From an uncultured Myxococcales bacterium (lineage in GTDB: Bacteria > Myxococcota_A > UBA9042 > DTJE01), in contig CAIZWN010000057.1 of the NCBI GenBank assembly GCA_903936705.1, positions 1 through 64,000 of the forward strand: a stretch of 64,000 nt of DNA, written 5' to 3'. Both the position numbers and the translations under genes were made by a program. Below, one piece after another: positions 391-59,300 of the stretch (position 1 is the first letter of the stretch; each line of letters starts with the position of its first letter). The notes below the pieces were generated by a model. That model saw only the letters and a list, made by a program, of their open reading frames with translations, ran no database searches and was not told where the DNA came from.

Positions 391-1506
391 CTACGGATCG
401 CTCGGACGGCGCCTCCAGCGATACGCCACCGCCATTGCTACGACCGCAAGGACGAGGACGGACATGGGTCGAGACTTCGCCTGGGCGGAGCAACTGCCGA
501 CGCTGTCACTAGCGGTGGGTTCGCTCTCGGGTTCGGCAGCCAGCGCTTCACCATCGACTCCCGCATCGTCCACCAGCGCTTCTGCCGGAGCCGCGTCCAC
601 GTCGTCGATCCCGGAGCCATCGGCTGCGGGCAGGTCGGCGTCCTGGAGCAGCGATCCATCTGCCGAATCAATCGGGACATCGTCGGGCACGTTGGCCTCC
701 GGCGACTCCTCAGGAGGTTCGGCCGGGCAGGACAGATCCACTTCAATCGGCGCTGAAAGAGGCCCCGGCAGGCCCCCCGGAATCACGACGCGCAGGGTGA
801 CCTTGTGTACCCCGGCGGCAAGGCCCGCTTCGAGCCAGTTGTCGTCCGACGGACATACTGAGAAAATTTCAAGCGGCGACTTCCAGTCGTTGAAGGGAGC
901 GGGCATTACGTGCTGCGGGTCATCCGCTTCCCCCGGGAGCGATAGCCCCCATCTGCTTCCGTCCACGAAGGCCTCGAGCGCCGCAGTCGAGTGGAAGCCG
1001 CCCAGCGTCAGTTCGGTGAGGTTCAATTGCGCAACAGCAGCCGGTACACGTGCGTTGCAGGATCCCGAGCGCGAGGTCAGGAAATCCTTGACGGACACAG
1101 ACTCCAGTCCCGCGAGAGGAGGCTTGTCGGGAAGGGTTTCCACTGGGCCGGCAGTAAAGTGCCGCGTCTGCTTGCCGGATTGGCAGTCGTTTGGTAGCAG
1201 GACGGTGACCGTGTAACGCATCCCGGGGACTAGCCCGGATAGGGGTTTCAGAAGCCGCCAACGGCCCACGACCTCCTGCCCGTAGGGAACAGCAACGCCG
1301 GCCTCATCGACCCAGGTCGGCAGGTGTTGGGTCTCCAGTGGGTAGCCGTCCCTGAGGGCTACGACGACAGCGGGAAGGTTTGACGGGACGATCGCATCTT
1401 CGGCGGGTGCGATCACATGCTCGGAGCACCCGACGGAGCATGGAAGAGCTAGCCGTGGTGAAAGAAGGGCCGCTGCCAGTGCAATGGGCAGGCACACTCG
1501 CTTCAC
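391..1506 (-). CDS. secreted protein with MYXO-CTERM-like anchor (cassette 1 cargo)
   Basis: The 371-residue product starts at GTG 1506, five bases after a GGAGG box; longer readings would run into attC site 2. Residues 1-20 are a signal peptide (basic start, Ala/Leu core) followed by a Cys-containing mature start. A 240-residue soluble part of unknown fold with several Cys follows, then an acidic Asp/Ala/Glu/Pro linker (about 262-330), then SVGSC, a hydrophobic helix and the basic stop YRWRRR. That C-terminal plan matches MYXO-CTERM sorting signals of Myxococcota. The gene lies between attC sites 1 and 2 and reads against the + orientation of its neighbour cassette, so it needs its own promoter. 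Function is unknown; a surface-displayed protein is likely. Confidence 0.7.
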   Translation of the reverse strand: MKRVCLPIALAAALLSPRLALPCSVGCSEHVIAPAEDAIVPSNLPAVVVALRDGYPLETQHLPTWVDEAGVAVPYGQEVVGRWRLLKPLSGLVPGMRYTVTVLLPNDCQSGKQTRHFTAGPVETLPDKPPLAGLESVSVKDFLTSRSGSCNARVPAAVAQLNLTELTLGGFHSTAALEAFVDGSRWGLSLPGEADDPQHVMPAPFNDWKSPLEIFSVCPSDDNWLEAGLAAGVHKVTLRVVIPGGLPGPLSAPIEVDLSCPAEPPEESPEANVPDDVPIDSADGSLLQDADLPAADGSGIDDVDAAPAEALVDDAGVDGEALAAEPESEPTASDSVGSCSAQAKSRPMSVLVLAVVAMAVAYRWRRRPSDP

Positions 1507-1593
1507 GAATTCCTCCCAACTTGCCGCGAGAATGATCCCGCTTCTTCGGGTCCGAATGCAAGCGCCGAGCGACGTTGTTGACTCTCCTTGTCC

Positions 1594-1770
1594 GTCCAAC
1601 GGCTTGCACGTCAGTGGCAAACCCCGGTGCCCGGCCCGCAGGGACGGGCATCCGGCGCGGTCCCTGCGGCCCCGCCCGCTACAGACGTTCGCCCCACTGC
1701 AGCGTGACGCAGGCGGGGCCATAGCAGGGACCGTGACGGAAGGGGTTGGTCCAATCCACGCTTGTTCGAC
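1594..1770 (+). other. attC site 2
   Basis: It begins GTCCAAC and ends GTTCGAC. The 5' part (AACGGCTTGCACGTCA) matches sites 1 and 3, while the centre has diverged (GGCCCGCAGGGACGGGC). The pair GCGGTCCCTGC / GCAGGGACCGTGAC makes an inverted repeat across the site, consistent with the folded single-strand substrate of IntI. Its end GTTCGAC is exactly complementary to the start of site 3 (GTCGAAC), and its start matches the end of site 1 at 6 of 7 positions. Confidence 0.75.
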
Positions 1771-1813
1771 AGCCCCTTCCTGCCGGGTTGACGTGGCCAA
1801 GGATTTTGGCTAT

Positions 1814-1827
1814 TGTACAAATGTACT
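1814..1827. promoter_or_regulatory. probable toxin-antitoxin operator (two TGTACA-type half-sites)
   Basis: TGTACA and TGTACT occur eight bases apart directly before the toxin gene. TGTACA is the known core recognised by YefM/Phd-family antitoxins in autoregulation, and the downstream antitoxin belongs to that superfamily. The position right at the start of the operon fits repression by the antitoxin-toxin complex. Binding is inferred. Confidence 0.5.
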
Positions 1828-1843
1828 AGTGGGCGAGGCGGCC

Positions 1844-2236
1844 TTGCAGATAGTTATCGATTCGTCAGCGATTCTGGCTGTTCTTTTGCGCGAGCCACGG
1901 CGAGAGGCCCTGATTGCCGCCACCTCATCGGCCACCTTGCTGACACCGGCATCGACCCCATGGGAGATTGGCAATGCCCTGGTCGCTGGCTGGCGCAGGA
2001 AGAGGCTGAATCAAGGGCAGATAGCCGAAGCCTGGGCGTCCTTTCAGTCGGTATCACTCAGGCTTGTCGACGTGGATGTGTCGAAGTCATTGCGCTTGGC
2101 GGTGGATCACGGTCTCTACGCTTACGACGCGTATGTTTTGGAGGCGGCGCTCGTTAGACGTGTGCCGCTCCTGACGCTGGACCAGGCGCTTGCTCGAGCC
2201 GCCGAGAAGGCAGGCGTGGCGAATCTGGAGGTTTGA
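1844..2236 (+). CDS. PIN-domain (VapC-type) ribonuclease toxin, cassette 2
   Basis: The 130-residue PIN-domain protein is likely an RNase toxin. The acidic metal-binding residues are visible: D6 (VIDSSA), E41 (WEIGNAL), D95 (YDAYVLEAA) and D113 (TLDQAL). The chosen start is TTG 1844 behind GAGG at 1835-1838, giving the usual N-terminus MQIVIDSSA; GTG 1829 would add five residues but has no ribosome site. The stop lies 2 bp before the antitoxin ATG, so the pair is translationally coupled. Toxin-first order is the reverse of most vapBC and phd-doc loci. Target RNA cannot be told from sequence. Confidence 0.85.
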   Translation: MQIVIDSSAILAVLLREPRREALIAATSSATLLTPASTPWEIGNALVAGWRRKRLNQGQIAEAWASFQSVSLRLVDVDVSKSLRLAVDHGLYAYDAYVLEAALVRRVPLLTLDQALARAAEKAGVANLEV

Positions 2237-2238
2237 CG

Positions 2239-2610
2239 ATGAAGACGTTCACCTACTCCGAAGCACGTCAGCAGTTTTCGACGCTCCTGGACGAGGCGCG
2301 CAGCGCAGGACGGGTTCAGATTCGCCGGAGGGATGGCCAACTCTTCGTGCTTCAACCTGCAAAGCAGGAACGCTCACCCTTGGATGTTCCTGGCGTGGAC
2401 GCTGGATTGGCAGAGGGAGAGAGTCATTCGTGGCTGAGGGACGAACGCGATAATTCCGCGGTTCGCCTTCTTGGCACGATCGGGCTTGAACCCGAGAAGG
2501 GAAGGAGAAAGGCAACGTCCGGCAAGCCCCACTCCGCGCGGACATCGATCACGGTCCGGCCCGCCAAGGCGACCCGCAAGACGGCCAAGCGCGCGACAAC
2601 ACGTTCCTGA
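2239..2610 (+). CDS. Phd/YefM-type antitoxin with long basic tail
   Basis: The 123-residue protein starts at ATG 2239, seven bases after GGAGG. Residues 1-60 fit the Phd/YefM fold: MKTFTYSEARQQFSTLLDEA is the typical DNA-binding N-terminus, followed by GRVQIRRRDGQLFVL. It should bind the TGTACA sites upstream and neutralise the adjacent PIN toxin. The part after residue 80 is unusual: Phd proteins usually end near 80 residues, while this one adds about 40 rich in Lys, Arg, Thr and Ser (RKATSG, KATRKTAKRATTRS), resembling a histone-like or RNA-binding tail. The gene ends 30 bp before attC site 3, as expected for a cassette gene. Confidence 0.8.
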   Translation: MKTFTYSEARQQFSTLLDEARSAGRVQIRRRDGQLFVLQPAKQERSPLDVPGVDAGLAEGESHSWLRDERDNSAVRLLGTIGLEPEKGRRKATSGKPHSARTSITVRPAKATRKTAKRATTRS

Positions 2611-2640
2611 CGACAAGCGTCGATCTATCGCCCTGGGCCT

Positions 2641-2808
2641 GTCGAACGGCTTGCGCGTCACCTGCACCCACGTCCGGCCGCAGGCCGGTTCGGCGCGCCA
2701 CTTGCCCCGCGGCGTCCGGTTAGCGACGAACCGTTGAAGGCGCTTGAGCCGCGGGACAAGGCAAGGGGCGTGACGAAAGTGGCCGTCCACTGCATGCGCT
2801 GGTTGGCC
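2641..2808 (+). other. attC site 3
   Basis: It begins GTCGAAC, the exact complement of the end of site 2, and ends GTTGGCC, the exact complement of the start of site 4. The interior shares most of its sequence with site 1, including CGGCCGCAGGCCGGTTCGGC and GAGCCGCGGGACAAGGCAAG. This site gives the clearest support that these repeats are recombined attC sites rather than ordinary intergenic repeats. Confidence 0.8.
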
Positions 2809-2859
2809 GGCCCCGCGGAGGGCGTCGCTATTGGATTCCCACAACGGGAATCGACGCCG

Positions 2860-3288
2860 TCAAACGCCCCCCCGGCCATGACTCTCGTTGATCACGAAGT
2901 CGCCACGCTGGGTGACGGCGGAGAGCAGGAGACTCAACCGACCCACGCTGGGGACGGAGCGTCCCTGCTCGTATCGAGCGTAACTGTTCAAGGAACGTGA
3001 ACCCATGCGTTGACTGACCTCGGATTGGGACAACCCACTCTTCACGCGTTGCCGACGAAGCAACAGGGCGGTCAAAGCCCCGACGTCAGGCGAACCAATC
3101 TCGAAGTAACCTTCGTCACCAGGGAAGACCTCCACGTGAAAGCCGCTCTTGTTCACGAGACTTTCGACCGCGTCCGCGATCATCTCGTAGGCTTCCTTTC
3201 GGGTACGCCCCTGCGTCACGACCCCAAGGATCGGCACGTCGATCGCCCAGTACCGACCGGCCTTCTGCACCTGGCCAGAGAATCTCAT
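2860..3288 (-). CDS. hicB: HicB antitoxin (RNase H-like fold plus XRE helix-turn-helix)
   Basis: The 142-residue antitoxin of the HicA toxin has a first half with the HicB core (RYWAIDVPILGVVTQGRTRK, EAYEMIADAVE), used to cap HicA. Residues from about 71 form a Cro/C1-type helix-turn-helix (LRRQRVKSGLSQSEVSQRMG, SYARYEQGR) that should bind the operator upstream of hicA. Its ATG overlaps the hicA stop as ATGA, so synthesis is coupled. The pair lies between attC sites 3 and 4 in the minus direction. Confidence 0.88.
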   Translation of the reverse strand: MRFSGQVQKAGRYWAIDVPILGVVTQGRTRKEAYEMIADAVESLVNKSGFHVEVFPGDEGYFEIGSPDVGALTALLLRRQRVKSGLSQSEVSQRMGSRSLNSYARYEQGRSVPSVGRLSLLLSAVTQRGDFVINESHGRGGV

Positions 3289-3464
3289 CGCTTCCTCCCT
3301 CCGGCATCCTTGAGGATGGCCTTCGCGGTCAGTTCGTTGATCTCCGCGTGCCGCGGAATCGGAATCTCACGTTCACCCTTGGCCCACACGTCATGCCTTC
3401 CGCCATGGCGGACCAACTGCCAGCCCAACTCCCGCAACACCTTCTCGAGGTCGCGCCGCTTCAC
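3285..3464 (-). CDS. hicA: HicA mRNA interferase toxin
   Basis: This 59-residue product starts MKRRDLEKVLRELGWQL, then HGGRHDVWAKG and IPIPRHAEINELTAKAI, which is the compact double-stranded-RNA-binding-like HicA fold. H24 in GGRHD is the expected catalytic histidine. The start is GTG 3464; no good ribosome site is visible before it. The order hicA-hicB with a 3-nt overlap is standard. A perfect palindrome lies 9 bp upstream of the start. Confidence 0.85.
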   Translation of the reverse strand: MKRRDLEKVLRELGWQLVRHGGRHDVWAKGEREIPIPRHAEINELTAKAILKDAGGRKR

Positions 3465-3473
3465 TGGTGAAGC

Positions 3474-3491
3474 CTACACGTTTTCGTGTAG
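3474..3491. promoter_or_regulatory. perfect palindromic operator upstream of hicAB
   Basis: CTACACG, a TTTT spacer and CGTGTAG form a perfect 7-bp inverted repeat located 9 bp before the hicA start codon. HicB has an XRE-type DNA-binding domain and HicB proteins are known to repress their own operons by binding palindromes, so this is the probable autoregulatory operator. Confidence 0.6.
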
Positions 3492-3547
3492 TCGAGCAAG
3501 TCGGACCCGGATGCACGAGAGATGGGCGCTTGCCTCTTCCCTGGTCC

Positions 3548-3720
3548 GGCCAACGGCTTGCGCGTCACCTGCACCCGCGTGCCGGCCGCGCAGCGGCCGG
3601 ACTGGCCCGGACCTTGTCCCCGCGGCCTCCCGGGAGTTCCGAAGCTTCGACAGAGTGTGAGCCGCGGGGATCAGCAAGGTCCGGGTCAGAGCGAGTGTCA
3701 GGTGGACGTGCTGGTTAGGT
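3548..3720 (+). other. attC site 4
   Basis: It begins GGCCAAC, the exact complement of the end of site 3, and ends GTTAGGT, a perfect match to GTTRRRY. The left arm keeps CAACGGCTTGCGCGTCACCTGCACCCGCG; the pair GGACCTTG / CAAGGTCC and CCCCGCGGC / GCCGCGGGG form inverted repeats in the interior. Its end predicts that the next site should begin ACCTAAC, and that heptamer occurs at 4594. Confidence 0.78.
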
Positions 3721-3772
3721 GCCCCCTTGTCCCAGTCGTCAGACCGGGCCGATGGCCCTCCAAGAGAGGTAC

Positions 3773-3826
3773 GGGTGCAGTCGTCGCGCGTCAGGACTCG
3801 GGCGAGGATGTTCGTGTCATGGGCTT
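3773..3826 (-). pseudogene. remnant of a PIN-domain (vapC) N-terminus
   Basis: On the minus strand this piece reads AHDTNILARVLTRDDC, very like the start of VapC toxins (DTN, LARxLTxDD). No start codon, antitoxin or rest of the domain follows: the frame runs into attC site 4. It looks like the debris of an earlier toxin cassette fused by deletion to cassette 4. Confidence 0.5.
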
Positions 3827-3923
3827 CATCGGCTTTGCCTCGACCGCTTGCATCGTTGACAACTTTCAGAAACGGAAGAACATTCCCTCTGGTGGATGGC
3901 ATCTTCGCCCGGGAGGATAACTC

Positions 3924-4526
3924 ATGGATGACACTCTCGGATTCATGATCCTCGGTCTTTTGGGACTGCAAGGGCTGTTCATGCGCTTTTCACCCGGATC
4001 CTTGCGAATCCAGAAACCCGATGGCGGGGCAACGGCCTGGATATACAACATCTTGAATCTGGGTTTCCTGCTGGGATTGACACCCTTGATCGCATTCTGC
4101 CTGATTGGCGGCTTTCAAGACATTCTTGAATGGGGTCAATTGCAATCCAGCGCCATCAAGCCAGTCCCATTCCAGTTCATCGGTATCGTCTGTTACGTAT
4201 CCGGTAACGGTCTGTTGTATTGGAGTCGAGTTGTCTTAGGGAAGAGTTTTCGTCTGGGCGCGGTTCCACCAAAGCAGACGGACTGTCTGGTCATTTCCGG
4301 CCCCTTCAGGCATGTTCGGCACCCCATGTATTCTGCGGTGGTGCTGATGTCATTCGGATTAAGTCTTATCCTATTCAATTGGGTTCTCTTGGTCTTCACC
4401 CTCGTTTTCCTGGCCGTCATTATTCGAATGATACCCCTTGAAGAAATACAACTGACCCTCGCCTACAATGGCGAGTATCGTTCTTACCAATCCAGAACCC
4501 GACGCCTGATACCCTGGGTTTATTGA
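3924..4526 (+). CDS. membrane methyltransferase of the isoprenylcysteine/phospholipid methyltransferase family
   Basis: The 200-residue protein has about five hydrophobic segments and the C-terminal SAM-binding signature of the ICMT/PEMT-type family: GPFRHVRHPMYS (126-137) and, near the end, EEIQL and Y..YQSRTRRLIP (174-197). It probably methylates a lipid or a membrane-bound thiol; the substrate is not predictable. ATG 3924 follows GGGAGG by seven bases. The coding sequence is visibly AT-richer than its surroundings and uses codons such as AAT, ATT and TTA more freely, which fits a cassette of foreign origin. It lies in cassette 4 after attC site 4. Confidence 0.8.
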   Translation: MDDTLGFMILGLLGLQGLFMRFSPGSLRIQKPDGGATAWIYNILNLGFLLGLTPLIAFCLIGGFQDILEWGQLQSSAIKPVPFQFIGIVCYVSGNGLLYWSRVVLGKSFRLGAVPPKQTDCLVISGPFRHVRHPMYSAVVLMSFGLSLILFNWVLLVFTLVFLAVIIRMIPLEEIQLTLAYNGEYRSYQSRTRRLIPWVY

Positions 4527-4593
4527 CTCTGTATCTTCGACCTGTTGTTGGTAGCCAGAATTTGCGAGAGCCTCGCGCATTGGCTCCGGGTGC

Positions 4594-4691
4594 ACCTAAC
4601 TACCTCTATGCCGGTCCGTAATTGTGGACTACGGGAGGGGCTTGGCTTCAGTGATTTCCTCCGGGCTGGCTGCTGGATGGGGGAGTTCAAC
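4594..4691 (+). other. candidate degenerate attC site 5
   Basis: ACCTAAC at 4594-4600 is exactly the start predicted by the end of attC site 4, and GTTCAAC at 4685-4691 could be the other end. The interior has only short inverted pairs (GGTCC / GGACT, GGAGG / CCTCC) and no similarity to sites 1-4, so the site is either of foreign type, carried in with the AT-rich cassette, or a chance match. A given heptamer is expected about once per 16 kb. Confidence 0.4.
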
Positions 4692-4751
4692 TGCTTAATG
4701 TCCTTGTCATTACTGCATATTGGATTGCTGGCGAGGCGGGAGAATTGGTGG

Positions 4752-4997
4752 CTAGACCGATCGGCAAAATTGCTTGGTTATTTGCTTTGAGAACGGCTTG
4801 CCCGTGAGTGCCAAACCCCGGTGCTCGGCCCGTGTCCCCGCGGACCAGCCCGCCAGGAACGTGCGCATGAAGACTTCGTGGAGGACCAGGACAGGAACGA
4901 GGAGTTTGTTGGTGGCTTCGATCGGCTTCGCTAAGAAGGCTGCGTTTGGGCTGCCGGTGAGGTAGGCGATCCAGGCAGAGGAATCGACGACGTTCAT
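4752..4997 (-). pseudogene. VapC toxin truncated by an attC-like half site
   Basis: The first 51 residues are a PIN-domain start (MNVVDSSAWIAYLTGSPN, then VLVLHEVFMRTFLAG). The frame then runs into sequence copied from an attC left arm and ends at residue 81, so the later acidic residues of the nuclease site are absent. The start overlaps the vapB stop (TAATG). It is almost certainly inactive as a toxin. The intact gene would be about 130 residues. Confidence 0.7.
4788..4856 (+). other. half attC site (left arm only)
   Basis: The stretch GAACGGCTTGCCCGTGAGTGCCAAACCCCGGTG...CGGCCCG aligns with the left arm of attC site 2 (AACGGCTTGCACGTCAGTGG, CAAACCCCGGTGCCCGGCCCG). The right arm is missing and the sequence continues inside vapC, so a deletion joined an attC arm to the middle of a vapC gene. 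The heptamer before the arm (TGAGAAC) no longer fits RYYYAAC. Confidence 0.65.
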
Positions 4998-5203
4998 TAG
5001 CGATCCTCGTGTTCGCGGGGGTCAGAGGCATCCATGCCCTTCAGGCTTCCGCGGAGGTCACGGACGCCCTTGAGAGGGATGAGTTCGATCCGTCCGCGAT
5101 AGGCGATGGCCTGAACCCGCTGCCCTGGGCGGATCCGCAACTCTTCACGGATCGCCTTTGGGATGACGACCTGAAACTTGGTAGAGACGGTGACGGCATC
5201 CAT
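4997..5203 (-). CDS. vapB: VapB antitoxin, SpoVT/AbrB-type DNA-binding protein
   Basis: The 68-residue protein has a swapped-hairpin AbrB fold: MDAVTVSTKFQVVIPKAIRE, then LRIRPGQRVQAIAYRGRIEL. It starts at ATG 5203 after GGAGGG. Its partner VapC directly downstream is truncated, so the antitoxin is now an orphan repressor or is decaying with its toxin. Confidence 0.85.
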   Translation of the reverse strand: MDAVTVSTKFQVVIPKAIREELRIRPGQRVQAIAYRGRIELIPLKGVRDLRGSLKGMDASDPREHEDR

Positions 5204-5452
5204 GACACCCTCCTGCGTTCAACGATAAGCGTATCGATCAGGCAAACGACTTGCAAAGGCGAGACAGGCGATTCGATTCGAGGCTGGCCAATGCTGACGG
5301 AGGGCGGCTTCCTGTAGGCCGCTTCTCACCCCAAGGCCTTCAACCTCCCGTTTCAAAGCAATCGACCCGACAGAGACAGCGGGGCGTGCCCCCCCGCCGC
5401 TGACGCTGCCGAACGCACCAACCGCTGACTCAACACCGTTGTTCATCAGGCA
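5204..5452. other. spacer between vapB and the integrase 3' end
   Basis: There is no credible gene in these 249 bases. One short G/C-rich inverted stretch (GCGGGGCGTGCCCCCCCGCC) lies near 5382, and an ACTCAAC heptamer near 5432 fits RYYYAAC but has no recognisable partner. This is where a recombination site joining the array to intI would be expected in a reversed layout, but none can be assigned. Confidence 0.4.
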
Positions 5453-6085
5453 CTACAGCAGGTCGGCTGGACTGGCGACGCCCGATGGACCACGGTTCAG
5501 AACGTGGGTATATATCTGTGTCGTTCGAACGGATCGGTGGCCCAGCAGTTCTTGTATCGTGCGGATATCGTGATTTGCCTCCAATAGATGTGTCGCGAAC
5601 GAGTGTCTGAAGGTGTGACACGACACGCGCTTCTTGATGTTTGTGGCCATCACCGCCTCGTGCACTGCCCTCTGGAGGATGGATGCATCGATGTGGTGTC
5701 GGCCCTGCTGGCTGGTTTTCGGGTTTACCCATCGCTTTTCCTGCGGAAAAACCCACTGCCAGCGCCAATCTTTTGGCGCACCTGGGTATTTTCTGTTCAG
5801 GGCGTCAGGCATCGCGACACTTCCCCAGCCGTCGGAAAGATCCTGCTGGTGCAGCTTGCGAACCCTGTTGAGATGCACGTCAAATGTCTTTTTCAATGAT
5901 TGCGGAAGCATGACGTAACGATCTCGCTGTCCTTTCCCGTCCCGAATCAGAATGGTGTTTGCCTTGAAATCAATGTCCTGTACTCGAAGCTGCAGGCACT
6001 CGGTTATTGCAAGGGATGGTGCGCCATTCGATCCTCCAGGCACGTCCATGAACAAAGGATCGAACGAATGGTCGATTCGTTTCAC
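5453..6085 (-). pseudogene. integron integrase (IntI-type tyrosine recombinase), 5'-truncated
   Basis: The readable frame gives 210 residues matching the C-terminal part of integron integrases. It contains [13 protein letters not shown], the block [13 protein letters not shown], the IntI-specific insert ([20 protein letters not shown]) that separates IntI from XerC/D, and the catalytic boxes [17 protein letters not shown] and Y in [13 protein letters not shown]. The N-terminal DNA-binding domain and the box I arginine (expected just before TECLQ, in a GxRxxE context) are not found; the sequence before it ([10 protein letters not shown]) does not match. It is therefore a remnant unable to recombine. 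Its 3' end faces the cassettes, the reverse of class 1 integrons. Confidence 0.82.
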
Positions 6086-11808: not shown

Positions 11809-11974
11809 CAAGGTCCCCCTCGAACCAGCCATCGGCGGCCCATCCCGCAAGTTCCGCAGTTGCCACGAGTCAGCGTACCGGGCAGGGATTTGCGGGTCAA
11901 GGCGGCACAACACCTCCTTCCCAACTCCCGCCTTGCGTGCGACCATCCGGCGCGATCTTGTTGGGGAAGGTGCC

Positions 11975-13399
11975 ATGACTGACAGCGAACTCAAGACGGC
12001 CTGGCGCGGCAACTACAGCGAGGTCGAGGCATCGCTGGCGATGATCGGCGACTGCGGGCGCGTCGTGGCGGCATTCAACGCCAATATCGACGCCGTCGTG
12101 AAGGTGTCCGGAAGCCGGATGGCCCAACTTGTGGCCGCGACCGGACTGGTCCAGACGGCCTTTGATAACGTTCTACCCCGCGCGATTCGTTCGCCGGCCG
12201 ACCTTGTTCGTGGGCTGCTGCGCTGCTTTTCCCAAGGCATCGCCGAGGAATGGTTGATCGAGGATGAAGCTGTGTTCGCCTGGGCGCGAGACCATGTCGG
12301 CTGGGACCGCATGCAGATGGGCGGGCAGGCTGGAATCGTTGCCAACGCGATGGCTCTGTGCGGCGTGCAGGATGTCCTGGTTCACTGCGCCTCGCTGCCG
12401 GCCGATCAGGCGCGCCTGTTCCTGGACCTGCCCAACCTGCGTTCCACCGGATCCGATAGCGAACTGGCAAAGGCCCATGACATCGTGCGCAACGATTCTC
12501 CGATGGTCCACTGGATCCTGGAATTCGACGGCGGCGACGTCCTGCGGTTGCCGGGTCGGGATGTGACCTGCCCCAAGTCGAACCGCTTCATCGCGACATA
12601 CGACCCGATGAACCTGGGGCTGCGCGTGGACGAGGCTTTCCAGCGACAGGCCTCCAGTCTGCCAGTCGACCTGGTCGTCCTGTCCGGCTACCACCTTCTG
12701 ACCGAGACGCTGCCCGACGGCGGAAAGGGCGCCGATCGTGTGGACGCGTCGATGGAAGCCGTGCTGGCCTGGCGGGCGACGAACCCGGACTGCCTGCTGC
12801 ACCTGGAGATCGCCTCCACGCAGGACCGTGCCGTGCGCCGGCACATACTGGAAGGGCCGGCCAGGAAGGTGGACAGCATCGGGCTGAACGAGCGCGAGAC
12901 GATCGACCTGCTGGAACTGCTGGGCGACGATGAACTGGTCGCCACCTGCAACCGCGAGGCGCGGGCCGATCACATGTTACAGGCCTTGCTGCGCCTGTTC
13001 CGTCATACGGGATGCCCGCGACTGCAACTGCACATGTACGGGTTGTACCTCACTGTCCAGCAGAAGGGTTTCCGGATCTCGCCGGCCGCGAACCGCCGTG
13101 GCATGCAGGTGGCGGCCGTAGTCGCCGCCGGGAAGGCCGGCACGGGCGCACTGGAGGACCGGTCGGCCCTCCTTTGGGCAAAAGAACGTGACGTGTCGGA
13201 CATCGGTCTGACCGAGCTGAAAAGGCTGGCCTACCGCATCGGGCTTGCATGGGGGCGCAGCGACATCGTGACCACCGGGATCTTCAATGGGCCCGACTTC
13301 GACATCATTGCCGTCCCGACGATCCTGGTCGAGCACCCCGTGACGCTGGTGGGCATGGGTGACACCATTTCGTCCGTCTCGCTGGTGGCGGCACGCTAG
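11975..13399 (+). CDS. ADP-dependent sugar kinase (ADP-PFK/ADP-glucokinase family)
   Basis: The 474-residue protein carries the full motif set of the ADP-dependent phosphofructokinase/glucokinase family, a ribokinase-fold group best known from archaea and animal ADPGK: FNANIDA (34-40), MGGQAGIVAN (about 115), HLEIAS, SIGLNERE, and the catalytic GMGDTIS near the C-terminus, where D is the general base. It should phosphorylate glucose or fructose-6-phosphate with ADP giving AMP; the substrate cannot be told. ATG 11975 follows GGGGAAGG closely. Bacterial members are uncommon; the gene is GC-matched to its neighbours, giving no sign of recent transfer. Confidence 0.85.
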   Translation: MTDSELKTAWRGNYSEVEASLAMIGDCGRVVAAFNANIDAVVKVSGSRMAQLVAATGLVQTAFDNVLPRAIRSPADLVRGLLRCFSQGIAEEWLIEDEAVFAWARDHVGWDRMQMGGQAGIVANAMALCGVQDVLVHCASLPADQARLFLDLPNLRSTGSDSELAKAHDIVRNDSPMVHWILEFDGGDVLRLPGRDVTCPKSNRFIATYDPMNLGLRVDEAFQRQASSLPVDLVVLSGYHLLTETLPDGGKGADRVDASMEAVLAWRATNPDCLLHLEIASTQDRAVRRHILEGPARKVDSIGLNERETIDLLELLGDDELVATCNREARADHMLQALLRLFRHTGCPRLQLHMYGLYLTVQQKGFRISPAANRRGMQVAAVVAAGKAGTGALEDRSALLWAKERDVSDIGLTELKRLAYRIGLAWGRSDIVTTGIFNGPDFDIIAVPTILVEHPVTLVGMGDTISSVSLVAAR

Positions 13400-31279: not shown

Positions 31280-31333
31280 GCCGCCAGGTATGAGGGACCT
31301 GTTGCCCTCTCTTTGCACCCTCAGGAGGATCAG

Positions 31334-32389
31334 ATGAGCAGAAAGATCAGGATCGCGATCAACGGCTTTGGGCGCATCGGGCGCCTGGTGGCCCGCGCTG
31401 CCATCGAGCAGGGTGGATTCGAAGTGGTTGCCATCAACGACATCATCGACCCGAAGGACTTCGCCAAAGGCGTCAAGTTCCACTCGAAGCTGTTCCAGTT
31501 CGACTCGACACACGGGCGATTCCCCGGAACCGTGGAGGCTAACGAGAACCAGATTATTGTTAACGGCCAGCCGATCGACATGATTTCGTTCAAGAGCCTC
31601 GAAGAACTGCCCTGGGCCAAGTATGACCTCGATTTCGTGGTCGAATCTACCGGCATCTTCCGCAAGCGCGATCAGGTGGAAACACATCTGAAGAACGGCG
31701 CCCGCCGGGTGCTGCTGACAGTCCCGCCGAAGGACTCTGTCGATGCTCTGATCGTTTGCGGCGTGAACGACAACGAGTTGAAGAAGGAACACAAACTCCT
31801 GTCCAACGCATCCTGCACGACGAACTGCCTGGCCCCGATCGTCAAGATCCTGAACGACAACTTCGGGCTTGTGCGCGGGTTCATGACCACCGTACACGCA
31901 TACACGAACGACCAGCGAATCCTTGACCAGTTCCACAAGGAGGACCTGCGTCGGGCCCGCTCGGCCGCAGTGAACCTGATCCCGACCTCGACTGGGGCCG
32001 CCAAGACCATCGGCAAGATCATCCCCGAACTGGACGGCAAGCTGGATGGCATGGCCGTTCGCGCACCGATTGCCGACGGCTCGCTGGTTGATTTTGTCTG
32101 CGAACTGGAGCGAATCCAGGTTCAGGACACCAAGGCCATGATCAAGGAGATCAATGCCGCGGTTAAGAAGGCTGCCGAGGGTCCGATGAAGGGTGTCGTC
32201 GAGTACAGCGAGGACGCGCTGGTATCGTCGGACATCATCCACAACCCTGCCTCGTCGATCTTCGATTCGAAGTCCACGATGGTCATGCCGAACAGTCGCA
32301 TGGTGAAGATCCTGACGTGGTACGACAACGAGTGGGGATACTCCTGCCGTTGCGTTGACCTGATGCGGATGGCAGCTGCCCTGGACTGA
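31334..32389 (+). CDS. gap: glyceraldehyde-3-phosphate dehydrogenase
   Basis: The 351-residue glycolytic enzyme oxidises glyceraldehyde-3-phosphate with NAD and phosphate. It shows INGFGRIGRLVARA, the active site SNASCTTNCLAP and WYDNEWGYSCR near the end. ATG 31334 follows AGGAGG. Its stop directly abuts the stop of the convergent downstream gene, leaving no intergenic base. Confidence 0.95.
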   Translation: MSRKIRIAINGFGRIGRLVARAAIEQGGFEVVAINDIIDPKDFAKGVKFHSKLFQFDSTHGRFPGTVEANENQIIVNGQPIDMISFKSLEELPWAKYDLDFVVESTGIFRKRDQVETHLKNGARRVLLTVPPKDSVDALIVCGVNDNELKKEHKLLSNASCTTNCLAPIVKILNDNFGLVRGFMTTVHAYTNDQRILDQFHKEDLRRARSAAVNLIPTSTGAAKTIGKIIPELDGKLDGMAVRAPIADGSLVDFVCELERIQVQDTKAMIKEINAAVKKAAEGPMKGVVEYSEDALVSSDIIHNPASSIFDSKSTMVMPNSRMVKILTWYDNEWGYSCRCVDLMRMAAALD

Positions 32390-41743: not shown

Positions 41744-42295
41744 TCAAGCGGCGCCAACCAGCGAACGCCCGTGCTCGAATCCGCGCCTGAAGGCGTTCAA
41801 GTTCAGTGACTCGGTACCCTTGGGTACCGACGACAGGAGTGCCTTTTCCGCGGCGCCCACCGAGACGATCCCGGTCACGCCGACGAAGAAGCCAACCATC
41901 ACGATGTTCAACACCAGGCGTCGCCCAAGTTCCTCGGCTATTCGCGTAGCACCAATTCCGTACGCACGAACGCCCTCGGGCAATTCCTTGATGTGGACCA
42001 GTTCCTCCTCGTACAGCAGCATCCCGCCAGGCTTCAGGCTAGGGGCGAACTGCGTATATGCGTCTGGAGACATGACCACGAGGATGTCCGGGTTCAACAC
42101 GTAAGGATAGTCCACCGGATCGTCGGCAATCGTCACCTGAGCCGAGCATGCGCTGCCTCGAGCCTCGGGGCCGAACGCCTGAATCAAGGTCGCGTTGAGA
42201 CCGTCATAGATGGATGCCGCCTTGCCCAGGATGATCCCGGAAAGGATGACGCCCTGACCACCCAGTCCCCCGATGCGTATCTCGGTCCTGGTCAT
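41744..42295 (-). CDS. korC: 2-oxoacid:ferredoxin oxidoreductase, gamma subunit
   Basis: The 183-residue subunit has the family start EIRIGGLGGQGVILSGIILG and the GxEARGSACSAQV region. It is part of the KorABCD complex that oxidatively decarboxylates 2-oxoglutarate (or a related oxoacid) to its CoA thioester and reduces ferredoxin. The start is 1 bp after the korB stop. The specificity is inferred from the operon order. Confidence 0.88.
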   Translation of the reverse strand: MTRTEIRIGGLGGQGVILSGIILGKAASIYDGLNATLIQAFGPEARGSACSAQVTIADDPVDYPYVLNPDILVVMSPDAYTQFAPSLKPGGMLLYEEELVHIKELPEGVRAYGIGATRIAEELGRRLVLNIVMVGFFVGVTGIVSVGAAEKALLSSVPKGTESLNLNAFRRGFEHGRSLVGAA

Positions 42296-42296
42296 T

Positions 42297-43184
42297 TCAA
42301 CCCCCGTACCGGCTGTAGCGGTCGCCGAAAACCTTGCCGAAATGGTCGTTCATCGATTCCAGCCAGGTCGGCCGCTCGCGATCCACGAACGTCCCAACCA
42401 CGATCTCGCCTGTCAGCCCCAGCCCGACTTCCTTGGTGTCGGCTCCGTTGCGCAACACCGATTTTTCCTTGTAGGTCCGAACCATGTCGACGCCGTCTCC
42501 CAGGCGATTACGGCGCAGGAACAGCGTCGGGCACGGTGCCAGTATCTCGATGAATCGGAAGCCCTTCTTTCCCAGGGCTTCCTTGAAGCACCTCGTCAAC
42601 TGGCGCACGTGGTACACGGTCCAGCGGGCCACGAAAGTTGCGCCGGCGGCATCGGCCAGGAACGGCAGGCTGGCCGGGTTCTCGAAATTGCCGTATGGCA
42701 TGGTCGTCTGGGTCGCACCGATCGGAGTCGTGGGCGCCACCTGGCCACCAGTCATGCCGTACGTGAAGTTGTTCACGCAAACAACCAGCAGATCCATGTT
42801 GCGCCGCGCAGCGTGCATGAAGTGGTTGCCGCCGATGGCGAACAGATCGCCGTCACCCGAATAAACCACAACGCTCAATTCGGGATTGGACAATTTCAGG
42901 CCGGTGGCAAACGGGATCGCGCGGCCATGTGTGGTGTGGAACGAATCCAGGTTCAGGTACCCGGCGACACGTCCCGTGCAACCAATACCCGACACGATCG
43001 CCAGTTTGTCGAGGTCGCTTGCGGCCTCTTCGATTGCGCGCGTGAAGCAGTTTACCGTTGTTCCGATGCCGCAGCCCGGACACCAGATGTGCGGGATGCG
43101 CTCCTGGCGCAGATAGGGCATTACCGGGTTGTCCATCATGGGCATGCCCGACAGATCCTGATCGTCTTGAATCGCTTCGCTCAT
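42297..43184 (-). CDS. korB: 2-oxoacid:ferredoxin oxidoreductase, beta (TPP) subunit
   Basis: The 295-residue subunit binds thiamine diphosphate and a 4Fe-4S cluster. It shows WCPGCGIG, the TPP motif YSGDGDLFAIGGNHFMHA with VNNFTYGMTGGQ, and IEILAPCPT. Its ATG overlaps the korA stop as ATGA. Confidence 0.9.
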   Translation of the reverse strand: MSEAIQDDQDLSGMPMMDNPVMPYLRQERIPHIWCPGCGIGTTVNCFTRAIEEAASDLDKLAIVSGIGCTGRVAGYLNLDSFHTTHGRAIPFATGLKLSNPELSVVVYSGDGDLFAIGGNHFMHAARRNMDLLVVCVNNFTYGMTGGQVAPTTPIGATQTTMPYGNFENPASLPFLADAAGATFVARWTVYHVRQLTRCFKEALGKKGFRFIEILAPCPTLFLRRNRLGDGVDMVRTYKEKSVLRNGADTKEVGLGLTGEIVVGTFVDRERPTWLESMNDHFGKVFGDRYSRYGG

Positions 43185-44338
43185 CGCGCCGCCTCCTGGA
43201 TACGGTCGAGGATCACCTGCGGGTCGTGAACCGTTCCGCCGGCGTGGTCCACCAGGAGGACCGGGATCCGCCCGTTCACGGCCAGGCGGACCTCGTGCAC
43301 CATCTGGCCGAGGTTGAGTTCAGGCACGACCATCGCCTTGCACTTCGATGCCAGCGCTGCGATACGGGCCGCTGGGAAAGGCCAGGTCACAACCAGACGG
43401 GCGTGGCCAACCTTAAGGCCGGCGGCACGCGCCCGAAGGACCGCGGCCGAAGCCACGCGTGATGTGATGCCGTACGACACGACGACAACGTCAGCGTCCT
43501 CGCATCCTTCCTCGCGAATATCCGTCAGCGCGTCAGCGTTGTCTCGAATCTTTCCGGACAACCGCCGTATCAGCTTGTCCTGCTGCTTGGGGGTCATGCA
43601 GGGCCAGCCCCGCTCGTCATGCGTCAGACCGGTGACGTGGATCCGGTGACCGTCCCCAGCCTTGGTCATCTCGGGCACGCGGTCAGCACCAACGTCATAG
43701 GGGCGGTAGGTTCCGGGGGCCTTCGCCGTCCAGCGACGCTCGGTAATCTCGATGGCCGACGCCTCGGGAATCACCACGCGCTCGGTCATGTGACCAACGA
43801 CCTCGTCCATCATCAGGAACACTGGTACTCGCCACTGTTCAGTCAGGTTGAAGGCCCGAATGGTCAGGTCGAAGCATTCCTGCGGGCTGTTGGGCGACAG
43901 GGCGATGATCTCGTAGTCGCCATGCGATCCCCACTTCACCTGCATCATGTCAGCCTGCGCCGGCAGCGTCGGAAGCCCGGTGGACGGCCCGCCACGCTGC
44001 ACGTCGATGAAGACGCACGGCGTTTCGGTGATGTACGCCAGGCCCAGATGCTCCATCATCAGCGACAAACCGGGGCCCGAGGTGACTGTCATCACCTTCT
44101 TGCCGCCCCAGGCGCCCCCAAGAATGGCTATGGAGGCAGCCAGTTCGTCCTCCATCTGGATGAACAACCCGCCCACGAGGGGAATGCGCTGGGCAAAGCG
44201 CTCGACCACCTCGGTGGACGGGGTGATCGGGTATCCGGCTACGAACCGGCAGCCCGCCGCCAGCGCGCCTTCACAGGCCGCATGGTCACCGTCCAGGAAG
44301 TGGATTCCCGTGAGTACACCCTTCGGATCCGCCGTCAC
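43181..44338 (-). CDS. korA: 2-oxoacid:ferredoxin oxidoreductase, alpha subunit
   Basis: The 385-residue subunit has the pyrimidine-binding domain with FVAGYPITPSTEVVERFAQ, MEDELAASIAILGGAWGGKK and TSGPGLSLMMEHLGLA, and the CoA-binding domain at the C-terminus (VVVVSYGITSRVASAAV, VPELNLGQMVHEVR). Together with KorB it forms the active site. It starts 13 bp after the korD stop. Confidence 0.9.
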   Translation of the reverse strand: MTADPKGVLTGIHFLDGDHAACEGALAAGCRFVAGYPITPSTEVVERFAQRIPLVGGLFIQMEDELAASIAILGGAWGGKKVMTVTSGPGLSLMMEHLGLAYITETPCVFIDVQRGGPSTGLPTLPAQADMMQVKWGSHGDYEIIALSPNSPQECFDLTIRAFNLTEQWRVPVFLMMDEVVGHMTERVVIPEASAIEITERRWTAKAPGTYRPYDVGADRVPEMTKAGDGHRIHVTGLTHDERGWPCMTPKQQDKLIRRLSGKIRDNADALTDIREEGCEDADVVVVSYGITSRVASAAVLRARAAGLKVGHARLVVTWPFPAARIAALASKCKAMVVPELNLGQMVHEVRLAVNGRIPVLLVDHAGGTVHDPQVILDRIQEAAR

Positions 44339-48805: not shown

Positions 48806-49885
48806 TCAAGGCGCCTGATTCTTCACGCAGCGGAAACCAATCGTGGGTTCGAACTGGCCCGCAGCGAATTTCCTGCTGCGATCAGTCGTGCGAGCCGTGC
48901 ACAGGTTGTCAGTACCAGTCAGGAAATTGCCTCCGCGAACCGGACGATCCGAACCTGTCGACTGGATCAACACGTCCGCCTGCTTCAATTCCGTATAGCG
49001 CAGACACCTGGGAAGGCCTTTCAGATCGAAGTACTGCGCGCCTCCTTCCGGGCGACATTGCGAAAAGCAACTGTCGCCAGCAGAGTTACATTCAGCGCAT
49101 GGGTTGAGGAAACAATTCTCCACACCAGCCCAATCACTGCGTGCAAAGCAATCGCAACCGGAGGGCAGTAAAGGCTTCTCGCACGTAAGGTCCTCGGCAT
49201 AGGCGCCCGACACCCACTCGGACACGTTGCCGGCAAGATCCCAGATTTTCTGCCCATTCTCGATTACGAAGTCGTCCGCGGACCCCATCGCCGCCTTGGG
49301 CTGGGAATCTCCGGCGCACAGTGCCATTGCAACCGTCTTGTCACAGTTCTGCAGGCTTGAGTCGCCATTGGAAATTGCCGAGGAGCGCTTCGAAGCCTGG
49401 TCGGTGAACGGCCCAGCCGCGACCCGCTCCCACTGGAGCTCTGTCGGCAACTTTCGGTCAACGAATTTGCAATACACCTCTGCCTGCGCCTGGGAAATGG
49501 CCATGACAGGGAAGTTTTCGTATGCCGTGGCCGAATAGTAGTCCTCGAAGCCCTTCGGCCCCGGGGACTTGGGCGCCTGGCATGTCCCCATATCGACGCA
49601 GTATCGGTACTGAATGTTTGTAACCTCGTGCTCGTCGATCGAGAAAGCATCGACATTGACCAGGACCGTTGGCCACACCTTTGGCAAGCCTGCCAGATTG
49701 TTGTCGGTCCAAGCCTGCTCGCACGATACCTTGCCGGCATCAACACAAACTTCGGTGCTGCCGAACAAGAATTGCCCACCCGAGATCGGCACCAGTTTCG
49801 TTGGCTCGGGTGGAATCACGCCAGTGACGCACGCCTGGAACAAGGCGCATGAAGCCAGCGCCACGAAGCCGCTGATCCGAGTCAT
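48806..49885 (-). CDS. SUMF1/formylglycine-generating-type lipoprotein
   Basis: The 359-residue lipoprotein (signal ending LFQAC) has the FGE-sulfatase fold: ISGGQFLFGS, FSIDEHEVTNIQYRYCVDMG, PVMAISQAQAEVYCKFV, KLPTELQWERVAAG, IWDLAGNVSEWVSG and the terminal RGGNFLTG, IGFRC. It has many additional Cys. True formylglycine-generating enzymes use a Cys pair near the C-terminus that I cannot identify with confidence, so it may be a binding or structural variant. ATG 49885 follows GAGGAGG. Confidence 0.82.
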   Translation of the reverse strand: MTRISGFVALASCALFQACVTGVIPPEPTKLVPISGGQFLFGSTEVCVDAGKVSCEQAWTDNNLAGLPKVWPTVLVNVDAFSIDEHEVTNIQYRYCVDMGTCQAPKSPGPKGFEDYYSATAYENFPVMAISQAQAEVYCKFVDRKLPTELQWERVAAGPFTDQASKRSSAISNGDSSLQNCDKTVAMALCAGDSQPKAAMGSADDFVIENGQKIWDLAGNVSEWVSGAYAEDLTCEKPLLPSGCDCFARSDWAGVENCFLNPCAECNSAGDSCFSQCRPEGGAQYFDLKGLPRCLRYTELKQADVLIQSTGSDRPVRGGNFLTGTDNLCTARTTDRSRKFAAGQFEPTIGFRCVKNQAP

Positions 49886-49895
49886 TATCGCCTCC

Positions 49896-51218
49896 TCACC
49901 AGCGCGCCGTTGCGCCGAGCATGAATCCGTTGCCTATAGGTGCAGGACCCGCGACTGGCATCGGGATCTTTTCCATCAACACCAGGTCTTGCGGACGGAC
50001 CTCCTTGCGGGCGCCCTCCCAGATCAACAGTGCCAGACCGATCCCCAGCAGGCCCGAGCCGACCCCGTAGCCCACGTATGTCCACTGCTTGTAAGTCTTG
50101 TAATCGCTTGACGTGTTCCATTCCTTGTTCGCCATGGACCGCAGCCAGAAACCGGTGCCCAACGATCCGCCGCCAAGTATCAACGATGTGATGCCCAGCC
50201 CACCGCGCCAGGAAAACGACTTGCGGCCCAGTTTAAGCTCGGCCTTCACGTCCGTCACAACCCCGGCGCGAATCTCGACGGTCCTCGATACCTGGTTGTA
50301 GTCCTCCTTTTCGACCACGATCTGGTGCGTCCCCGCTTCGACCGGCAGGGGGTCATCAAACGGCGACACCGCAACGACCTTCCCGTCGACGTAGATGCGC
50401 GCCTTCCTGATGTTGGTGTAGACCCGGACGAACCCGTCGTTCTTGATCTTTTCCATCGCGAACGCCAGCCGCAACGCGTCGCGGGACCTGACGACGAACT
50501 CGCGCTCAAACCCCTGGTGCCCCTTCTTCTTCAGAAAAACCTTGTGGGTACCGGCAGGCAGGTGGGTCGCATACGGGGTCGAGCCAAGTACCTTGACCGG
50601 ATCGTCCACGTATATCTCGGCCCCGCTGGGGTCCGAATCGATGGTGACCTCAGGCAGGGCAAGGAATGCCTTTTCCTTCAGGACTTCGATAGTGCGCTCG
50701 ACGTCGGCAGCGTCATTAGCAGCCGTACCGTTGTTCTGCGCCTGGGCCAGTTCGAGGTAGGACTGGTAACTGGCAGCCGCCTTGTCGTATTCGGCCGCCT
50801 TCTCGTGCGCCTTGGCTGCATTGAACAGGTTTGACGGATGTGAGAACAATACCTGGGCGGCCTCGAACGCGGCTGCCGCCTGGATGAACTGTCCCTGATC
50901 GTACAGCGCCTGCCCCTGAACGCCCATCGCCCGCGACTTATCCTTGGGGTCATCGGCTACGGGGGCTTCCGAGGGCGCGGCCTCGACAGAAACAGGAGCA
51001 TCGCCCACAGCAGTGGACGTCACTGGATCAGGGGCCGCAACCGGCACCGCTTCCGGGGCCGCAACCGGCACCGCTTCCGGGGCCGCAACCGGCACCGCTT
51101 CCGGGGCCACCACCTGCACCTGGTCCGCCGGCGGCTGGACCTGGGCTTGCGCCACGGCAGGAAGCAACAAACCAGTCAGCGTCGCTAGAACAACCACTTG
51201 CAGGACGCTTCGCATCAT
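49896..51218 (-). CDS. PEGA-domain envelope protein with N-terminal repeats
   Basis: The 440-residue protein has a signal peptide (VLATLTGLLLPAVAQA), an Ala/Pro/Val-rich stretch with three copies of PEAVPVAA, a TPR-like helical part (ALYDQGQFIQAAAAFEAAQV) and two PEGA domains (VTIDSDPSGAEIYVDD, GSTPYATHLPAGTHKVFLKK; RVYTNIRKARIYVDGKVV). Two membrane helices near the end (LGITSLILGGGSLGTGF, YGVGSGLLGIGLALLIW) anchor it. PEGA domains bind surface or wall polymers. It leads the operon with the SUMF1 lipoprotein and dacB. Confidence 0.8.
   Translation of the reverse strand: MMRSVLQVVVLATLTGLLLPAVAQAQVQPPADQVQVVAPEAVPVAAPEAVPVAAPEAVPVAAPDPVTSTAVGDAPVSVEAAPSEAPVADDPKDKSRAMGVQGQALYDQGQFIQAAAAFEAAQVLFSHPSNLFNAAKAHEKAAEYDKAAASYQSYLELAQAQNNGTAANDAADVERTIEVLKEKAFLALPEVTIDSDPSGAEIYVDDPVKVLGSTPYATHLPAGTHKVFLKKKGHQGFEREFVVRSRDALRLAFAMEKIKNDGFVRVYTNIRKARIYVDGKVVAVSPFDDPLPVEAGTHQIVVEKEDYNQVSRTVEIRAGVVTDVKAELKLGRKSFSWRGGLGITSLILGGGSLGTGFWLRSMANKEWNTSSDYKTYKQWTYVGYGVGSGLLGIGLALLIWEGARKEVRPQDLVLMEKIPMPVAGPAPIGNGFMLGATARW
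51031..51120. repeat. 24-bp tandem coding repeat (three full units plus part)
   Basis: Three exact units of GGGGCCGCAACCGGCACCGC + TTCC lie end to end at 51031-51102, with a fourth that diverges after GGGGCC. They encode PEAVPVAA in the PEGA protein. Exact identity suggests recent expansion by slippage. Confidence 0.85.
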
Positions 51219-51379
51219 TTAGGATTCCCCCGGAATGGAATGGATGGCCAGGATTTCCAAGCCGACCTGCGCGTCCAGGCAGTCCCGTACCGTCTGGTTA
51301 CGGGTAGAATGTTAGGGTGGCCCCCTGGGTGTGTCAAGGAAAGCGTGGCGTTTGACGACGTTGTGCACCGGGAGGATTG

Positions 51380-52309
51380 ATGCGGTATCGACGACTTGGA
51401 CGTGCTGATTTCGAGGTATCGGTAGTGGCGGTAGGCACGTGGGCAATGGGAGGGACCGACTTCGGTCGCACCGACGATCGCGATTCGATAAAGGCAATCC
51501 ACCGGGCCCTGGATCTGGGGGTGACCCTGTTCGATTCTGCCCCCATCTACGGCGGCGGCAGGGCCGAGGAGGTCCTTGGTCGGGCGCTGGAAGGGGTGCG
51601 CAAAGGCGTCGTGATCGCGACGAAGTGCGGGCCGGTCGAGCCACGCCCCGGTCTCTTGCGCATGGACTACTCCCCGCAGGGGCTGGTTGCCCAGGTGGAT
51701 GCAAGCCTGCGCAGGCTGAAAACGGATGTCATCGACCTGCTGCAGATGCACTGGCCGGACCCGGCGTGGCCAATCGAGGACGCCATTGGGGCAATGGGCC
51801 GATTGGTCGATGCTGGCAAGGTCCGCGCGATCGGGGTCTCAAACATGCGCCCCGAGGAACTGCGGAAGGCGGTAGCGGCCGGTCCGGTGACCTCGCTGCA
51901 ACCTCCTTACAGCCTTCTCAACCGGGAATTCGAGAAGGAACTCCTGCCGCTGTGCCGGGAACTCGATCTGGGGGTGCTGGTCTACGAACCGCTTGCCAGG
52001 GGCATGCTGACTGCCAAGTTCACCCCCACATGGAAATTCGAACCGGGTGACGTACGATCGTCGGACCCACGTTTCCGCGGAACTGCATTCACCGACAACC
52101 TCGCCAAGGCCAGGAAGATCAATGAAGTGGCCAGGTCCGAAGGCATTCCAGCGGCGCAGGCTGCCATTGCCTGGGTCCTGGCAAACCAGGGAATTTCGAC
52201 GGCCCTTTGCGGGGCCAAGACCGCTACCCAGGCATTCGAAAACGCCCGCGCTGCCGACCTTGAGCTGGATGCAACAACACTAGCCGCGCTGCGACGGGCG
52301 GCCGATTGA
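51380..52309 (+). CDS. aldo/keto reductase
   Basis: The 309-residue NADPH-dependent reductase has the (beta/alpha)8 signatures: GTWAMGG, LGVTLFDSAPIYGGGRAEE with catalytic Asp and Tyr, ATKCGP with Lys, DLLQMHWPDPAWP with His, VRAIGVSNM and the C-terminal AIAWVLANQGISTALCGAKT. The order fits the AKR family of the YajO/IolS type. ATG 51380 follows GGGAGG. Substrate unknown. Confidence 0.88.
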   Translation: MRYRRLGRADFEVSVVAVGTWAMGGTDFGRTDDRDSIKAIHRALDLGVTLFDSAPIYGGGRAEEVLGRALEGVRKGVVIATKCGPVEPRPGLLRMDYSPQGLVAQVDASLRRLKTDVIDLLQMHWPDPAWPIEDAIGAMGRLVDAGKVRAIGVSNMRPEELRKAVAAGPVTSLQPPYSLLNREFEKELLPLCRELDLGVLVYEPLARGMLTAKFTPTWKFEPGDVRSSDPRFRGTAFTDNLAKARKINEVARSEGIPAAQAAIAWVLANQGISTALCGAKTATQAFENARAADLELDATTLAALRRAAD

Positions 52310-52371
52310 TCCAATCGGTACCGGACATCTACCCGCGCTTATGACCAGGACATCACGTCCGCTTATGACCC

Positions 52372-52400
52372 TTGCACCCGGGCAGTCCGCATGCTAGCCT
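52372..52400 (+). promoter_or_regulatory. promoter of tRNA-Arg
   Basis: TTGCAC and TAGCCT are separated by 17 bases and end 18 bp before the tRNA, a usual distance. Just upstream, CGCTTATGACC occurs twice (near 52336 and 52360) as a direct repeat of unknown meaning. Confidence 0.45.
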
Positions 52401-52418
52401 TCGCCCCGCGTTGACCCT

Positions 52419-52492
52419 GGGGGATTAGCTCAGTTGGATAGAGCGTTGGTCTCCGGAACCAAAGGTCGTGGGTTCGAACCCCGCATCCCCCA
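52419..52492 (+). tRNA. tRNA-Arg (anticodon CCG)
   Basis: The 74-nt sequence folds as a full cloverleaf: acceptor GGGGGAT/ATCCCCC, D arm GCTC-AGTTGGATA-GAGC, anticodon stem TTGGT/ACCAA with loop CTCCGGA giving CCG, and T arm GTGGG-TTCGAAC-CCCGC with one G-U pair. The 3' CCA is not encoded. It reads the Arg codon CGG. Gene boundaries are set by the acceptor stem. Confidence 0.95.
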
Positions 52493-52557
52493 CCTGTTTC
52501 CGGCTTTTTTGCATCAACCCACCGCACTTTGCTGACTCCGAGCCACTGGAGGTAGCC

Positions 52558-53502: not shown

Positions 53503-53518
53503 ACAGGAAGCAACCTGA

Positions 53519-54811: not shown

Positions 54812-54858
54812 CCGCGCGGCATCTGGTATCCTTCGCAAGGATTGTTTCGAGGACCCCG

Positions 54859-56750: not shown

Positions 56751-56771
56751 CAAGGGTTTGACCAAGGACCA

Positions 56772-59048: not shown

Positions 59049-59300
59049 CGATCCCCCCGTCGAACCACTGGCACTGCAACATTATCCGAGGCAAAAAGGC
59101 CGCACAGATTGTCCCCGCACGAACGCTGCATTGTCAAGCGCCGTAATGGCGTCGAAAAGGCCTCTGATGGAATGAAGCGGCAGGAACACGAACGAGGCCG
59201 GCAATAAAGCTCTTCGAGTAAACTGTCCGCAAAACTGCCAGTGACACCGGGCCCACAGGCAAAAGAGAGCTTGAATCAACAGCAGGGCAGCCAGCAGAGC
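59049..59300. other. intergenic region upstream of the kinase
   Basis: There is no credible gene in these 252 bases. The region separates the PEGA protein stop from the kinase start, both on the minus strand, so it should contain the kinase promoter. I see no convincing consensus element. Confidence 0.35.

Follow-up and report, generated by a model that had tools for sequence, protein, structure and literature searches.

Which enzyme is encoded by a gene of the ADP_PFK_GK family (PF04587) when it lies on a bacterial chromosome, and what does it mean for the sugar metabolism of its host? We address this question for a gene at 11975..13399 (+ strand, stop included) in a window of 64,000 nucleotides, which is the whole stretch of DNA that was analysed. 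The host is a Myxococcota MAG of 4.85 Mb, assembled into 84 contigs, with 96% completeness and 1.2% contamination.

Bacteria are absent from a family tree of 2013, which covers archaea and eukaryotes (PMC3688580), and a glucose kinase review from 2025 names archaea and animals only (PMC12696579). Bacterial occurrence of family members is mentioned in passing (PMC7948494), and in a study of candidate phyla PF04587 was sought and none was found there (PMC7304191). In the open-access literature we found no assay of a bacterial PF04587 enzyme; RefSeq calls such proteins ADP-dependent glucokinase/phosphofructokinase, in haloarchaeal entries. The kind of enzyme is known, and its bacterial clade is apparently uncharacterised.

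A complete member of the ADP_PFK_GK family

The frame runs from ATG 11975 to the stop at 13399, with 474 codons plus the stop and no internal stops. In a Pfam profile search the 474-residue protein matches PF04587 with 249.6 bits (E-value 6.3e-74, cut-off 27 bits), and residues 29-471 are aligned to profile positions 2-429 of 430. The top sequence match in the PDB is the ADP-dependent phosphofructokinase (PFK) AncMsPFK (6c8z, E-value 1.4e-57), and ADP-glucokinases come next. The sequence identity to characterised enzymes is 24-31%.

An AlphaFold2 model of the protein (mean pLDDT 90.7, pTM 0.89) shows a ribokinase-like large domain with an inserted small domain. Its first 22 fold matches in the PDB all belong to the ADP_PFK_GK family, with the highest TM-score, 0.88, for the ADP-glucokinase of T. 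litoralis (1gc5). The assignment to the ADP-dependent sugar kinases, made in the initial annotation from the letters alone, is borne out by the full-length profile match, the PDB matches and the fold of the model. It is confirmed, far beyond chance, that 11975-13399 holds a real and complete PF04587 protein.

The mechanically called reading frame begins further upstream, at GTG 11657. We place the start at ATG 11975 instead, because a Shine-Dalgarno-like GGGGAAGG, read from the sequence at 11963..11970 (+), precedes this ATG by 4 bases and because the start methionines of six close relatives are aligned with it. Further, the protein misses the cut-offs of two archaeal NCBIfam equivalogs, NF010642 (231.9 of 387 bits) and NF010641 (180 of 554 bits); the bacterial clade described below is distinct from both.

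A sugar site of the glucokinase type

To describe the active site, residues of AncMsPFK with roles given in PMC7948494 were mapped onto the protein and next compared across an alignment with 82 bacterial and 8 archaeal rows. The catalytic Asp, the HxE motif, the Mg-binding Glu and R206 are invariant across all these rows. In the protein, the GxGD motif with catalytic Asp463 is found in LVGMGDTIS (residues 458-466, codons 13346..13372, +), the Mg-ADP motifs HxE and (N/D)xxE are found at residues 276-278 (12800..12808, +) and, as NxxE, at residues 305-308 (12887..12898, +), and the family-conserved R206 is Arg204 (Arg204 to Asp210, 12584..12604, +). In the bacterial rows Asn takes the place of the first Asp of DxxE, as in the glucokinases of Thermococcales.

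The earlier statement that all motifs are present holds for GMGDTIS (residues 460-466), HxE, NxxE and the conserved Arg, but not for one Thr described as family-wide. An inter-domain contact, Glu188-Thr446-Val447 in T. litoralis glucokinase numbering, is said to be conserved throughout the family without exception (PMC3688580). The equivalent of Thr446 is the clade-specific Leu458 in the protein and Leu in 82/82 bacterial rows, while the Glu and Val of the contact are retained. Since the claim of conservation rests on a tree of archaeal and eukaryotic sequences, and does not concern a catalytic requirement, family membership is left standing.

Glucose and fructose 6-phosphate (F6P) enzymes differ at a few positions: E90 is conserved in glucokinases and bifunctional enzymes, and K179, N181 and R212 in PFK and bifunctional enzymes. 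Alanine mutants of the latter three raise the KM for F6P about 200- to 1000-fold (PMC7948494 for both statements). None of the 82 bacterial rows departs from Glu at the glucose-binding E90 (Glu92 in the protein, codon 12248..12250, +), and in the same 82 rows K179 is replaced by Leu or Met, N181 by His and R212 by Asp. The protein has Met177 and His179 (12503..12511, +) and Asp210 at these three positions. It thus lacks the F6P residues of an ADP-PFK and carries those of an ADP-glucokinase, with E90 present, His at N181, and K179 and R212 absent. The sugar site also includes NANIDA (residues 35-40, 12077..12094, +), which corresponds to N32, N34 and D36 of AncMsPFK. Position Q244 is mixed in the bacterial rows (His in 50, Gln in 31) and uninformative.

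The glucokinase of T. litoralis has the same pattern of Leu/Met, His and Asp as the bacterial rows; those of P. furiosus and P. horikoshii share the His and Asp and have Cys at K179. The residue pattern predicts a glucokinase without PFK activity. Because the sugar-site residues are of the glucokinase type and not of the PFK type, we narrow "sugar kinase" to glucokinase, and we put the probability that the protein is an ADP-dependent glucokinase, within the ribokinase-like ADP_PFK_GK family, at about 0.8.

If it works like its T. litoralis homologue, the protein would bind Mg-ADP first and glucose second, and its small domain would then close. Asp463 would activate the 6-hydroxyl of glucose, and transfer of the beta-phosphate of ADP would yield glucose-6-phosphate and AMP. 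The product could then pass through phosphoglucose isomerase, which is encoded in the host genome, to ordinary ATP- or PPi-type phosphofructokinases.

A native gene in a bacterial clade

The host genome contains a single PF04587 copy, and the nearest named relatives of the protein are from Myxococcota MAGs, at 73% identity. In the host's order the gene occurs in seven of 14 genomes, which belong to three genera of a single family; the same seven are the only carriers among 379 sampled genomes of the phylum. The third-position GC of the gene is 0.82, the same as in neighbouring housekeeping genes, and a tex-like gene lies downstream of it both in the host and in a congener (L012, cluster 79). 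The gene is resident and native, and not a contamination.

Just upstream, in divergent orientation, lies a putative cyclase (PF04199, 11167-11871). Elsewhere in the window a PIN-domain protein, an HTH protein and a phage-type integrase (5453-6085, minus) are clustered in 1484-6085, possibly the remnant of a mobile element. On the minus strand, 48806-60752 encodes in a row FGE-sulfatase-like and PEGA/TPR proteins and a Ser/Thr protein kinase with DUF4388. A search against Rfam gave tRNA only.

A scan of 84,980 species genomes gave 148 loci with relatives. The best 80 of the 148, which were retained, span, judging by record titles, eight phyla: Pseudomonadota, Bacteroidota, Ignavibacteriota, Myxococcota, Spirochaetota, Bdellovibrionota, Planctomycetota and Chlorobiota. 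Because the scan patterns came from Myxococcota sequences, bacterial homologues at a greater distance may exist outside the clade. In plasmids, the homologues found were haloarchaeal only (24-27% identity).

A phylogeny had been proposed as a check. The 80 retained relatives form one clade with the protein, and in a careful tree of 33 rows (27 of them bacterial, with eukaryotic and Methanosarcinales glucokinases left out) this bacterial clade has 100/100 support. Three groups, each with full support, make up the tree: bacteria, archaeal glucokinases, and PFK/bifunctional enzymes. As the tree is unrooted, we claim no sister group for the bacteria; forcing them together with a single PFK row is rejected with no more than p = 0.026. 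Further, 13 positions are constant in the bacterial rows and absent from 8/8 archaeal rows, Leu at Thr446 among them.

In the gut alphaproteobacterial order around locus L048 (genome G403), 114 of 153 genomes are above the PF04587 cut-off, and the predicted ADP-glucokinase looks near-core there. The genomes of this order are small, about 1-2 Mb. The gene neighbourhood consists of housekeeping genes only; it is kept within the alphaproteobacteria, where the upstream gene order (nth-like, tsaD-like) is conserved, and shows no conservation across phyla. The cultured marine Bacteroidota Marinifilum and Labilibaculum also carry a member of the clade.

Glucokinases and phosphofructokinases of the host

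Glucokinases of the PF02685 type have no match in the host genome or in the host's order, and PTS EIIC has none in the host genome. The sole ROK protein of the host resembles the B. subtilis fructokinase 1xc3 (E-value 5.1e-88); its best NCBIfam match is FrctkaseScrK, with 253 bits under a cut-off of 400, and it scores 82 bits on the ROK glucokinase model, against 174-214 for the GlcK-like ROKs of relatives. The hexokinase search matched in no control genome and is uninformative for the host. With no PF02685, no PTS EIIC and a fructokinase-like ROK, the predicted ADP-glucokinase is the only recognisable glucokinase in the host and would be its main one, subject to the 96% completeness of the MAG and to the possibility that fructokinases accept glucose.

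This does not hold for carriers in general, since 4/7 of those in the family also have a GlcK-like ROK. Such a ROK is found in 6/7 genomes of the order that lack the ADP-glucokinase, and a strict swap of one enzyme for the other within the order is rejected (4/7 against 6/7, Fisher p = 0.56). The glucokinase sets vary even within one family (G003, G004 and G000 against G001, G002, G010 and G011): ADP-glucokinase alone, together with a GlcK-like ROK, or ROK alone. In a set of 50 genomes with a member of the clade, PF02685 matches are nowhere strong and reach 39 bits at most. On the glucokinase model no ROK exceeds 110 bits in 21 of these genomes, and 8 lack ROK proteins altogether. Most Bacteroidota carriers have GlcK-like ROKs.

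The host genome has three PFK-A genes. In one (L002) the motif GGDGTMCG comes close to GGDGSxxG, given for ATP-dependent enzymes, and departs from GGDGSxxI, given for ADP-dependent ones (PMC11609450 for both motifs). The others, L003 (GGNDS; G000:C68:177796-178785) and L004 (GGDDS; G000:C74:21163-22113), score above the cut-off set for PRK14072, a diphosphate-dependent subfamily. By these motif and subfamily assignments the host has one ATP-type and two PPi-type phosphofructokinases. Together with the predicted ADP-glucokinase, the PPi-type enzymes give the host at least the genes for activating sugar without ATP.

Alternative explanations

From this gene, taken with nearby gap and a 2-oxoacid:ferredoxin oxidoreductase, the initial annotation had suggested an ADP-driven glycolysis that would suit an anaerobic life on little energy. 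Both neighbours exist, at 31313-32389 (+) and at 41747-42295, 42297-43184 and 43181-44338 (all minus), and the first kinase step probably does use ADP. However, they lie 18 and 28 kb from the kinase gene and are not co-oriented in the manner of an operon, and the neighbourhood is not conserved across phyla. The suggested search for an ATP-PFK found the ATP-motif enzyme L002, besides the two PPi-type enzymes, which leaves glucose phosphorylation as the one step for which ADP use can be claimed and makes the wider proposal very improbable. An ADP-PFK or bifunctional enzyme working at the F6P step is slightly less implausible, though still improbable: both activities occur in the family and AncMsPFK is the best match by E-value, but the three F6P residues are Met, His and Asp in the protein, are of non-PFK type in all 82 bacterial rows, and three PFK-A enzymes are already encoded in the host.

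A family member with an altered donor (ATP or other) or acceptor (another hexose or a sugar analogue) is the least unlikely of these alternatives. The clade is deep and separate, its 13 specific positions include the Thr446 to Leu change beside the catalytic loop, and we found no member with assay data. Against this, all examined Mg-ADP and glucose contacts are retained and the solved relatives are all ADP kinases, which makes such a change unlikely. In a MAG, and with a family described mainly from archaea, one might suspect that the contig is archaeal and misbinned, or that the gene came from archaea very recently; this is already contradicted by the housekeeping-like third-position GC, the six other genomes of the family with the gene, the tex-like gene shared with a congener and the fully supported clade of 27 bacterial rows, and its probability is close to nil.

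Implications and comparison with known enzymes

The ADP-dependent glucokinase is thus the reading that we prefer. More tentatively, several bacterial phyla might use this deep clade as their main or only glucokinase, paired in the host with PPi-type phosphofructokinases in an ATP-free sugar activation (ADP for glucose, PPi for F6P); we consider this possible but rather doubtful. If the glucokinase prediction is correct for the clade, ADP-dependent glucose activation would be a common bacterial trait and not a speciality of archaea and animals, pathway reconstructions that label such genomes glucokinase-less would be corrected, and bacterial sequences would belong in the debate on how animals acquired ADPGK. 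As Marinifilum and Labilibaculum are cultured, ADP-dependent glucose activation is directly testable there.

Among known systems, the ADP-glucokinases of Thermococcales (T. litoralis 1gc5/4b8s, P. furiosus 1ua4) resemble the protein in fold, in Mg and catalytic motifs and in the full set of residues that separate glucose from F6P enzymes. It differs from them in being bacterial, with at most 31% identity, and in the changes Thr446 to Leu, Arg117 to Gln and Arg202 to Lys. With the ADP-PFK and bifunctional enzymes (P. horikoshii 1u2x, M. jannaschii 5od2, AncMsPFK 6c8z) it shares family, fold, GxGD and HxE, and with the bifunctional ones also E90; in contrast to them it lacks K179, N181 and R212 and has NxxE in place of DxxE. 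Animal ADPGK (mouse 5ccf) has the fold family in common, at 19% identity and a TM-score of 0.64 in a structural comparison. The ADP-dependent PFK-A of cyanobacteria and alphaproteobacteria (PMC11609450) is likewise a bacterial ADP-dependent glycolytic kinase, but it has the unrelated PFK-A fold and acts at the F6P step.
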